From positions 1-37,869 of IMG/VR virus record IMGVR_UViG_3300028423_000593: 37,869 bases of DNA; one strand, 5' to 3'. This document shows, piece after piece, positions 20,201 to 22,985 of the stretch. This DNA comes from a virus. The stretch's first letter is position 1; each line of letters opens with the position of its first letter. The notes beneath the pieces were generated by a model. That model did not search any database, was not told the origin of the DNA, and was given only the letters and a program-made list of their open reading frames with translations. The translations under genes and the position numbers were made by a program.

Positions 20201-22645
20201 CTATCCGCGCCCTCGGCTTAGAATAGATGCCTCCCGGTGCCGCGCACGGGCGGTTTTCCCGCCCCGGTTAAACAGGCTTTGCTTGTGGTTTGCTTGAACG
20301 TGGGTCTGCTTGCTTTGCCCAGAGCCAATCAGCTTCTTGCCGTATCCCATTTTCAGCATCATGTATTGTTCGCCATCGGAAACGTGGCTGTAGATCGACT
20401 TCTTATCAATCGTGTCGCCATCCTTGAGATAACAATAGCCGCCCTTCTTTGCGTTCAAAAGGTATGTGCAGCGTTCGTCGATCACATATCCCGGTCGCCC
20501 ATCGACCATTGTGTTCAACTGCGTTTGAACCGCGCCAATCCGCACAATCGGGTCGTTCGACCACGCGGGTTCAATATCCAGCCCGTGCTTTTTGAAAATA
20601 CGGAAGGCGGTGGCCTTGGCGTCCTCTTGGTTTGGCTGCCGATCATCGCCGCGCGGGTCGCCCACCATCACAATCCGATAGCCCTCGTAGTCCCGTTGGA
20701 TTTTTTGGGCCAGCAAAATTGCAAAGTCCTCGGTATGGGTGTCGCGCGTCACCAGTTCATCCAGAGCGCGCACCTGCCCTCGCACATCCTGCCCAAAGGC
20801 CGCTGCGGGCGTCAACCCAAAGTCCACGCCGATATAAATCGGTTCGGCGGGGTCAGGGTCCAGCGTGGCAACGTGGTACTTTTCCGAAAAGCCTTGATAC
20901 ACAGGTCTGCCCGCAAAAATATGCCCGATCTGGTTTTGCAGCATGTTTCTGATCCAGTCGCGGGTTTGCCCCTCGCGCAGATCAACATAATAGCTTTCAT
21001 CGGTGAACCGCGCGTTGTCGCGATTTGGGTTCAATTCGTATCCCGTCAGTTCCGCGCCGCTCCATACATCGAACACGGCAGGCGGCTGGATAAAAAACTC
21101 CCAGTTCTGGGGCTTGAGAAGCGTCAGGCGATCCTCCTCAGACATCCAATCCGGCGCATCCACCTGCCCCGACATGATCGACCACCAATGCTCCTCGTCT
21201 GGCGCGTTTGTGTCCATGATGGCGAAGAAACGGTGCGATCCGCCGTCCATTGCCCTCGGAAAGCGTTTCAGGCGGGAAATCCCGGCTGTAATGATCCCCC
21301 GCGACAGTTCCCGCGCCTCGTTGAACCAGATGTTCGTCAACTCGAACGACAGCAGCTTTTTCACATCCTCGTCACGGTCCAGCGCCAGAAACCAAACCTC
21401 CCACTCCAAATCCAACTCGGGGATGCGAATGTCGTGGCGATACGGCGCCCGCCAGCGCACCTTTCCAAACTGATCCTCGGGCAGCCATTCCAGCCACGTT
21501 TTCATGGTGGTCATTTCAAGCTGCGGGGTGGTATTCCGCACCACGGCAGTCCGCACTTTCCGCTTGCCCGTTCTTTCGCCTTTCCAGCACTTGTCCTTTT
21601 CGCAGTAATAGGCGGTTTGCGGGTCAAGCGCCCTCGGCTGCGCCAAAGCCTGCCGGAACAATTCAACCACGCAGGCAACCGATTTGCCGGAGTTGTGGTG
21701 AATTGCTCCATCTTGGGTAATGTAATTGTTTGTGTCCAGAACCTGCATGTCCCAAAAAACACGCTTTACTTGCTCTCGCTCTAAGCGAACGATGGTCCCA
21801 TAGGTAGCGGAGCAAGCATATGAATGAGAATACTCGTCGCATCCTTGAGATGTCTGATGGCAGTCGCCCTGCTCGTGAGATTGCAGAAAATCTTGGCTTA
21901 TCTGCGCGCTATGTTCGGCGCGTTCAGGCTCGACATAACGCACCGCGTCTTTCTGTTGGCGCTCGCTTTGGCGAAGCAAATCAATCATGGCGTGGTGGCC
22001 GCGCGATTGATCTTGATGGCTATGTTTTGTCTCCTGCTCCCGGCCATCCAAACGCAAGGATGTTGCCGGGGAAAAAGTCGGGGCGAGTTCTTGAGCATCG
22101 CTTGGTGATGGAGCGCAAGATTGGTCGCTTTCTGACTTCCTCAGAAATTGTTGACCATATTGACGGGCTGAAGCTGCACAACGCGCCAGAAAATCTACGT
22201 CTTTTTGATAGTAATTCGGAACACCTACGCCGCACCCTTCAAGGTCGCGCGCCGCAGCACTCTCCAGAAGGCTCAATGAACATAGGGCGACGGACTGACC
22301 TTGGGCAATCTCTGATACGCGTCGATAATTACCGTCTGCGCAGAGAAGAAGGTGGTGTTCGGCTGCAGCAAATTCTCCTTGCGTGGTTGTCACTCGGACC
22401 AGATAGCCCGTTCCTTTTGGGAACGCGCCGCCACTTAAAGAAAGCTGGAATTTCCGACTTTTCGCGTTCCAGCTTAGAACGCGCATTGGCCGATCTATCT
22501 GCGAAATGGGCAATGGGCCGTTTTCCGTTAGAACAACTGCGTCACCAGCAAGGCACCCGATAGGCCCTTGGATGCCCCGCACAAAACTGTCAGAGGCCAT
22601 GAAATCACGCAGGGTTTGCCCGTCAGGCTCGTAGTTGAAGTTCAC
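20201..22645 (-). CDS. terL: terminase large subunit (TerL) precursor interrupted by an intein
   Basis: GTG at 22645 is chosen because the product then starts MNFNYEPDGQTLRDFM, the usual opening of this TerL group; an upstream TTG at 22702 gives 19 unlikely extra residues. The precursor has 814 residues. Walker A is split as GPIG/SGKS by a 288-residue intein. After splicing, about 526 residues remain, the normal TerL size. Walker B is seen as IWFNEARE. The C-terminal RuvC-like nuclease is seen as IYIGVDFG and later VMVGDPRGDD. The enzyme pumps DNA into the procapsid through the portal and cuts it. Until the intein leaves, ATP binding should be blocked. Confidence 0.92.
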   Translation of the reverse strand: MNFNYEPDGQTLRDFMASDSFVRGIQGPIGCLAGDAVVLTENGPLPISQIDRPMRVLSWNAKSRKFQLSLSGGAFPKGTGYLVRVTTTQGEFAAAEHHLLLCADGNYRRVSEIAQGQSVALCSLSLLESAAARDLEGCGVGVPNYYQKDVDFLARCAASARQYGQQFLRKSESDQSCAPSPSDAQELAPTFSPATSLRLDGREQETKHSHQDQSRGHHAMIDLLRQSERQQKDAVRYVEPERAEHSAQISQDFLQSHEQGDCHQTSQGCDEYSHSYACSATYGTIVRLEREQVKRVFWDMQVLDTNNYITQDGAIHHNSGKSVACVVELFRQALAQPRALDPQTAYYCEKDKCWKGERTGKRKVRTAVVRNTTPQLEMTTMKTWLEWLPEDQFGKVRWRAPYRHDIRIPELDLEWEVWFLALDRDEDVKKLLSFELTNIWFNEARELSRGIITAGISRLKRFPRAMDGGSHRFFAIMDTNAPDEEHWWSIMSGQVDAPDWMSEEDRLTLLKPQNWEFFIQPPAVFDVWSGAELTGYELNPNRDNARFTDESYYVDLREGQTRDWIRNMLQNQIGHIFAGRPVYQGFSEKYHVATLDPDPAEPIYIGVDFGLTPAAAFGQDVRGQVRALDELVTRDTHTEDFAILLAQKIQRDYEGYRIVMVGDPRGDDRQPNQEDAKATAFRIFKKHGLDIEPAWSNDPIVRIGAVQTQLNTMVDGRPGYVIDERCTYLLNAKKGGYCYLKDGDTIDKKSIYSHVSDGEQYMMLKMGYGKKLIGSGQSKQTHVQANHKQSLFNRGGKTARARHREASILSRGRG
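21692..22555 (-). mobile_element. intein in the Walker A loop of TerL
   Basis: The element begins with Cys (codon 22555-22553) and ends His-His-Asn (last codon 21694-21692), followed by Ser of the C-extein. Block A is CLAGDAVVLTENGPLPIS. Block B is seen as FAAAEHHLLL, with Ala in place of the usual Thr of TxxH. The C-terminal splicing motif is VFWDMQVLDTNNYITQ through AIHHN. About 100 residues form the N-terminal half and about 36 the C-terminal half. The roughly 150 residues between them are polar, rich in Ser, Gln, His and Arg, with no nuclease motif in this strand. The expected nuclease is instead encoded antisense (21820-22563). The boundaries restore GPIGSGKS exactly. Confidence 0.93.
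21820..22563 (+). CDS. HTH-HNH homing endonuclease encoded antisense inside the intein
   Basis: This 247-residue frame lies opposite the intein. CGGAG sits 7 bases before the ATG. Residues 15-37 form a helix-turn-helix (REIAENLGLSARYVRRVQ). Residues 92-138 carry the HNH core: EHRLVMERKIGR, then VDHIDGLKLHN, then PENLRLFDSNSEHLR. The catalytic-type His is H113, with N121 and N125. A C-terminal part (about 165-231: LQQILLAWLSLG, RRHLKKAGI, SSLERALADL) looks like a second DNA-binding helix set. The family would cut intein-free terL alleles to drive homing. Only the last two codons and the TAG lie outside the intein. I see no clear promoter upstream, so how it is transcribed is open. Confidence 0.85.
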   Translation: MNENTRRILEMSDGSRPAREIAENLGLSARYVRRVQARHNAPRLSVGARFGEANQSWRGGRAIDLDGYVLSPAPGHPNARMLPGKKSGRVLEHRLVMERKIGRFLTSSEIVDHIDGLKLHNAPENLRLFDSNSEHLRRTLQGRAPQHSPEGSMNIGRRTDLGQSLIRVDNYRLRREEGGVRLQQILLAWLSLGPDSPFLLGTRRHLKKAGISDFSRSSLERALADLSAKWAMGRFPLEQLRHQQGTR

Positions 22646-22649
22646 TCGG

Positions 22650-22985
22650 TCATTCCTCGCATTGGAACATAAATCTAAGAAGCCCGTTGGCTTCCCCTGC
22701 AAAGGTTTCCGTGTACCCGTCCCCAGAGATTTCAGTCAGGTTGGCGGCAACATCTACTGGGTCTTTACTATAATATCAGCAAATTTTTTTCCCTCCTGCA
22801 TGACCAGATGAAAATGCCGCCTCGACAATCCCAAGGTGATAGAAAAAACACTTCATCCGCGCTTCTATTTTCGCATCTTTGCTTTTGTTTGGAGGCTGTG
22901 CCTCGCAAGCGATGCGTACTGCGCTGTCCGCAAAAGCAGGGGCAGAAAAAGCAATCAGGGCGGCAGTAAAGGCATATTTCATCAT
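22650..22985 (-). pseudogene. Rap1a/Tai-like exported protein interrupted by an in-frame TGA
   Basis: ATG at 22985 (or 22982), with AGAGGA upstream, starts a clear signal peptide (MMKYAFTAALIAFSAPAFA). The frame stops at a TGA at 22778-22776, after KKIC. The same frame then continues without stops for 41 sense codons (YYSKDPVDVAANL through FMFQCEE) to a TGA at 22652-22650, 4 bases before the terL start. Taken together, the spacing of Cys residues, with a central GIVEA segment and a C-terminal FxC, resembles small periplasmic Rap1a/Tai immunity-type proteins. The extension fits a once-intact gene of about 111 residues filling the gap before terL. A nonsense mutation is likeliest; read-through or sequence error is possible. 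Confidence 0.55.

Follow-up and report, generated by a model that had tools for sequence, protein, structure and literature searches.

Homing inteins of the known kind carry their nuclease in frame between the two splicing halves, and it may be asked whether an intein can instead be mobilized by a nuclease encoded on its opposite strand. This question is raised by the IMG/VR viral record IMGVR_UViG_3300028423_000593, which was analysed whole (37,869 nucleotides; hereafter the window, to which all coordinates refer). Its gene for the large terminase (TerL) contains an in-frame intein, and a gene for an HNH endonuclease runs antisense to that intein. An earlier note on the window had proposed that the antisense gene is the homing endonuclease of the intein. 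The results presented below favour this reading, to which we assign a probability of roughly 0.88: the element would be a homing, and hence mobile, intein inserted in the Walker A site of TerL, and the opposite strand of its DNA would encode the homing endonuclease. As far as sequence can tell, the intein is continuous and acts in cis, its splicing residues are intact, and the intact HNH gene faces it on the antisense strand in an invariable register; by the same comparison, the layout recurs in dozens of phage lineages.

The TerL intein and its antisense HNH gene

Both open reading frames were recovered where the earlier note had placed them (Table 1), and the insertion point of the intein lies inside the Walker A loop of TerL. 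The splicing motifs, which the note had judged to be good, proved to be so: Cys1 and HHN↓(S/C/T)GK-type junctions (the arrow marks the insertion border) are retained in all 48 lineages of the family described below, and the structure model of the intein matches solved inteins with the Hint fold (NpuDnaB 4o1r, E value 1e-8). Hint-N and Hint-C are predicted with confidence in this model, and the linker of approximately 150 residues is for the most part predicted to be disordered (predicted local distance difference test, pLDDT, 30-50). A group I intron with an antisense nuclease gene was considered as well and was rejected, since an Rfam search of the region for the ribozyme of such an intron gave no match up to an E value of 1.

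On the opposite strand, the HNH protein exceeds the cut-off of Pfam HNH_3 (E value 3e-7) and aligns with PHROG_10730 along its entire length (E value 2e-56, residues 7-231 on profile positions 15-234). The HNH similarity is thus far above background; a match no better than background would have counted against the earlier note. Residues H93, R94, D112, H113, N121, N125 and H135 are invariant in the 42 aligned members, and the protein model has a pLDDT of 87. The note had also read a helix-turn-helix in this protein; in that region (about residues 1-41), matches to helix-turn-helix families stay below cut-off, and a sequence search of the PDB with the HNH profile found nothing but a designed repeat protein in the same region, and hence no nuclease. 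Residues 170-231 are modelled as helical (pLDDT mostly 92-97) and have no match above noise other than PHROG_10730. The ribosome binding site claimed for the gene is present (Table 1); GGAG-like sites precede the HNH start in most related lineages, and TerL-synonymous conservation is raised approximately twofold at 21788-21823, around the GGAG site and the HNH start.

Distribution of the arrangement

A tblastn search with the HNH protein gave full-length matches in nine phage records, namely those of seven Pectobacterium phages, Dickeya phage Setonix and Pseudoalteromonas phage PHS3, and in all nine the strand opposite the HNH gene was also matched by the TerL search in the intein region. In the eight Pectobacterium and Dickeya records, the TerL alignment covers the intein only (query 39-353), though TerL exteins flank it. 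Profile searches, from which the best 80 of 250 IMG/VR relatives were taken and six loci came from GTDB genomes, brought the set to 95 loci after removal of overlaps; 94 of these have a full-length HNH gene and one (L011) a shortened one, and together they represent 48 distinct lineages (the first family). In 48 of 48 lineages, the HNH gene is antisense to the intein in the same register, and the TerL-intein frame is open. In nearly all loci, the two remaining antisense frames stay open for only short stretches across the HNH core, and short HNH relatives outside inteins, used as controls, have no open frame in the shared register. The host genes are mostly TerL, some of them without detectable extein similarity.

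These loci were gathered by HNH similarity, which biases the search. With the intein as the query, 78 of the 80 inteins found retain an intact antisense HNH gene; this query contains the linker, and its ranking therefore favours inteins with the nuclease. The scattered stops in the antisense frame of intein homologues that would have spoken against the earlier note were not seen. Instead, the exceptions in this set, L259 and L263, and likewise L011 of the earlier collection, show nuclease loss: in-frame deletions have removed the N-terminal half of the HNH gene and left the splicing residues intact.

Annotation of these loci is conflicting. For Escherichia coli MEI003 (L134, 3101-5388), RefSeq annotates the antisense HNH gene and lists the TerL that contains the intein as a pseudogene without its N-terminus; the TerL of PHS3 (L025) is annotated as truncated in the same manner, and the TerLs of the Pectobacterium phages are annotated as 'hypothetical'. 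The intein is thereby hidden, and the antisense layout explains the mis-annotation. HNH frames that reach approximately 40-110 codons further upstream occur in the group of L085, L092, L098 and L111 and in L003, where the Hint-C side of the linker is also longer; the upstream extension of L003 holds a second helix-turn-helix-like repeat.

Selection on the two reading frames

In this register, HNH codon position 2 lies opposite TerL position 3, and HNH position 3 lies opposite TerL position 2. Substitutions were counted in eight disjoint close pairs of the first family and are listed as TerL positions 1/2/3. In the linker, the counts are 35/166/32 in 1264 codons, and the variation thus falls mainly at the HNH wobble positions. 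Beyond the HNH gene, the TerL wobble position varies normally, with 363/216/1304 in 3420 codons of the C-extein, 10/5/39 in 256 codons of Hint-C, and 7/0/56 in 184 codons of Hint-N residues 1-23, which lie outside the conserved part of the HNH gene. On the other hand, Hint-N residues 24-94, opposite the C-terminal domain of the HNH protein, are nearly frozen at all three positions (10/10/13 in 568 codons). This pattern places the linker under HNH constraint, and the extein and the free parts of Hint under TerL constraint, while the near-freezing of the overlap implies that both constraints act there. Judged by these comparisons, purifying selection is acting on both frames, HNH and TerL-intein, and the selection on a single frame that the earlier note had foreseen as a possible objection was not found. 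Similarly, over the 48 lineages TerL-synonymous codon identity is approximately double that of the extein where the HNH gene lies opposite, and approximately equal to the extein level elsewhere and also over the last 17 or so HNH codons of the window (22513-22563).

The note's account of the polar insert as a by-product of coding for the HNH protein agrees with these data, because the variation of the sense frame tracks the HNH wobble and the insert is mostly predicted to be disordered. Its overlap with the HNH gene was also confirmed; the gene is not confined to the insert, however, as its C-terminal domain is antisense to Hint-N and it terminates within the extein. Long antisense open reading frames are common in G+C-rich DNA, and the HNH frame could in principle be a by-product of intein coding, or the reverse, with only one of the two being a gene. 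The HNH-specific wobble substitutions in the linker, the freezing of Hint-N residues 24-94 at all three positions, the full-length PHROG_10730 match and the conserved catalytic residues all oppose this; the codon-position pattern already refutes it, and we rejected it as having practically no probability.

A further possibility is a split gene: TerL would be produced as two pieces that carry a split intein, the nuclease gene would stand free between their coding parts, and the open minus-strand frame would be incidental. Fractured genes, in which a nuclease gene stands between the halves of a split intein, are known, and the linker is disordered and not conserved in the TerL sense. In fractured genes the nuclease is likewise unfused to the splicing domains, but the present precursor is one continuous frame. 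When HNH codons were permuted within each amino acid and TerL-frame stops counted, the window alone has none against 5.7 expected (stop-free permutations: 0 of 300); the first family has 0 against 346 expected, the second family described below has 0 against 145, and the 72 HNH genes of both have 0 against approximately 491. The continuous TerL frame is consequently kept by selection, which points to a continuous intein. With stops avoided, two separate frames not found, and the other two antisense frames short over the gene in nearly all loci, the split arrangement was rejected as highly improbable.

Mobility of the intein

Sixteen TerL relatives with 43-68% identity to the TerL of the window are intein-free and have exact empty sites, with the junction QGPIG↓SGKS (RGPVG↓SGKS in the most distant of the 16). 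Among E. coli prophages, the same site is occupied in MEI003 and empty in ET729. In addition, in several pairs divergence is far lower in the intein than in the exteins: differences at wobble positions are 1/32 in Hint-C versus 192/457 in the flanking TerL for L054/L055 (p 2e-6), 1/32 versus 133/405 for L092/L097 (p 1e-4), and 6/32 versus 247/405 for L098/L111 (p 3.5e-6). This indicates that intein DNA moves horizontally between TerL alleles, as do the records mentioned above in which the intein aligns but the exteins give no match, and we infer homing from the empty sites together with the excess intein similarity. The locus thus combines empty and occupied alleles, a nuclease with an intact catalytic core and signs of horizontal movement, as in a homing intein, and departs from the classical form in that the nuclease is antisense rather than in frame between the splicing halves.

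In L026/L033 and L049/L056, the first 30 codons after the intein are 4-13% diverged, compared to mostly 0-1% over most of the rest of TerL, as if a short stretch had been co-converted from another donor.

It might also be considered that the HNH gene, though genuine and under selection, serves packaging or attacks competing phages rather than homing. HNH proteins adjoining terminases can act in packaging, as reported for the one beside the HK97 terminase (discussed in PMC10448857), and the cleavage target of the present nuclease is a predicted one. On the other hand, the HNH gene is found within unrelated TerLs and an SNF2 helicase, always in an intein of the Walker A loop; the nearest TerL relatives manage without intein or nuclease; and the intein DNA moves horizontally. 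A non-homing role is therefore improbable in our view.

Several results weigh against a homing intein with an antisense nuclease. The Pfam Intein_splicing match (E value 8.5e-6, 26.1 bits) is below its cut-off of 35.8; among solved structures, the HNH model matches I-HmuI best, but weakly (E value 0.14, probability 0.96); promoter-like sites around the HNH start are no more frequent than chance (one match, which is also the mean for shuffled sequences); in several other close pairs the intein is not more similar than the flanking TerL; and expression, splicing and cleavage are deduced from sequence. If the homing reading is nevertheless correct, a plus-strand transcript would be translated into the HNH protein, which would cut the intein-free Walker A DNA of co-infecting phages. 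Repair of the cut would copy the intein and the nuclease gene jointly. Finally, protein splicing would restore TerL, and the antisense-derived linker would leave as a disordered loop.

Table 1. Coordinates of the TerL intein locus and the antisense HNH gene in the window
Feature	Position	Strand	Remarks
TerL (large terminase) including in-frame intein	20201..22702	-	833 codons, TTG start; PHROG TerL matches
N-extein, ending ...VRGIQGPIG within Walker A loop	22556..22702	-	Empty-site relatives: QGPIG↓SGKS
Intein, 288 aa	21692..22555	-	Cys1 (22553-22555) to HHN (21692-21700), +1 residue Ser; splicing motifs; model matches solved inteins
Hint-N splicing half, intein residues 1-91	22283..22555	-	pLDDT approximately 90-97
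Polar linker, residues 92-249	21809..22282	-	Mostly predicted disordered; sequence apparently dictated by antisense HNH gene; frame kept open
Hint-C splicing half, residues 250-288	21692..21808	-	Clear of HNH gene; TerL wobble variation normal
C-extein, from SGKSVACV (second part of Walker A) to TerL end	20201..21691	-	PHROG TerL; empty-site relatives
HNH endonuclease gene, 247 aa, ATG start	21820..22563	+	Codon position 1 opposite TerL position 1, HNH 3 opposite TerL 2
GGAG ribosome-binding-like site	21809..21812	+	7 nt upstream of HNH ATG; similar sites in most lineages
Putative N-terminal helix-turn-helix, about residues 1-41	21820..21942	+	Helix-turn-helix matches below cut-off; structure model
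HNH_3 catalytic core, residues 93-129	22096..22206	+	HR...VDHIDG...N..NLR; Pfam HNH_3
C-terminal helical domain, residues 170-231	22327..22512	+	Antisense to Hint-N; dual-coding zone, all codon positions constrained
HNH tail	22513..22563	+	Not conserved (lineage comparison); stop codon 22561-22563 inside N-extein

A second family and the origin of the C-terminal domain

From the distant relatives L114 and L115, approximately 40 further loci were reached, representing 24 distinct lineages (the second family). In all 24, the HNH gene is antisense in the same register as in the first family, in inteins at the Walker A site of TerL, except that the host gene of L171 is an SNF2 helicase. The HNH gene of these L114-like loci stops at the Hint-N border, is confined to the linker and lacks the C-terminal domain. 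Correspondingly, TerL-synonymous conservation is raised in the linker only, and close pairs (two only) give 46/148/25 in 347 codons of the linker and 14/9/66 in 150 codons of Hint-N.

In a tree of the HNH core, the two families group together (support 0.84) to the exclusion of the free-standing HNH genes that were sampled, with L116 branching just outside this clade. A single origin of both families is suggested, and not more than that, because the alignment is short and the sample of free-standing genes small. Since the C-terminal domain is antisense to Hint-N and is absent from the second family, the simplest account is that the first-family nuclease gained residues 170-231 by overprinting the splicing domain, a direction which we infer. 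In the family of the window, each protein would since have constrained the other in this zone. It is plausible, and on balance somewhat favoured, that these loci belong to a large class of phage inteins with an antisense homing nuclease, probably of single origin, one branch of which overprinted Hint-N with a new C-terminal DNA-binding domain and so locked both proteins codon by codon. If true, this locking would slow the nuclease loss that normally follows fixation.

Comparison with known systems

In-frame homing inteins (LAGLIDADG PI-PfuI and VMA; HNH in some bacterial inteins) likewise move as one DNA unit that encodes both a splicing domain and a nuclease, and like the present element they occupy a conserved site in an essential gene, have empty sites as counterparts and spread horizontally. 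Unlike in these inteins, the present nuclease is a separate protein on the opposite strand, which in the family of the window overlaps codons of the splicing domain, and the precursor linker appears to be by-product sequence. I-HmuI, the best though weak fold match, is intron-encoded on the sense strand, whereas the present gene is antisense to an intein. The PHROG_10730 entry, to whose family the present protein belongs over its full length, reads 'HNH endonuclease' only and is silent on inteins or antisense coding.

Antisense homing endonuclease genes occur in nuclear ribosomal DNA group I introns, such as those of Didymium squamulosum (I-DsqI) and D. iridis (Dir.S956-2) (PMC9548176). There too, the nuclease gene is antisense to the self-splicing element that it mobilizes; however, splicing is performed there by an RNA, and the nuclease gene occupies a peripheral segment in which no second protein frame needs to remain open, whereas here both strands code for protein. 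The present element would thus be the protein-splicing counterpart of these intron genes, yet with two proteins on both strands and a zone in which a splicing domain and a nuclease domain both appear to be under selection. This layout would make an overprinting origin and the gain-and-loss cycle of a homing element directly testable. In the open-access literature, no antisense nuclease was found described in any intein, which leaves priority unproven, and a paper on the Pectobacterium Ymer genus mentions neither intein, HNH nor homing.

Other features of related TerLs

In the C-terminal part of the MEI003 TerL, a stretch of approximately 28 residues, VVVNSSNPPVKDRVNSMNAMFCNANGERR, occurs twice in tandem. 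A second, unrelated intein-like insert is apparent further downstream in the TerLs of L101 (1488-4862), L084 (2043-4868) and L011 (2770-5580), and that of L101 looks like an intein with an in-frame nuclease domain.
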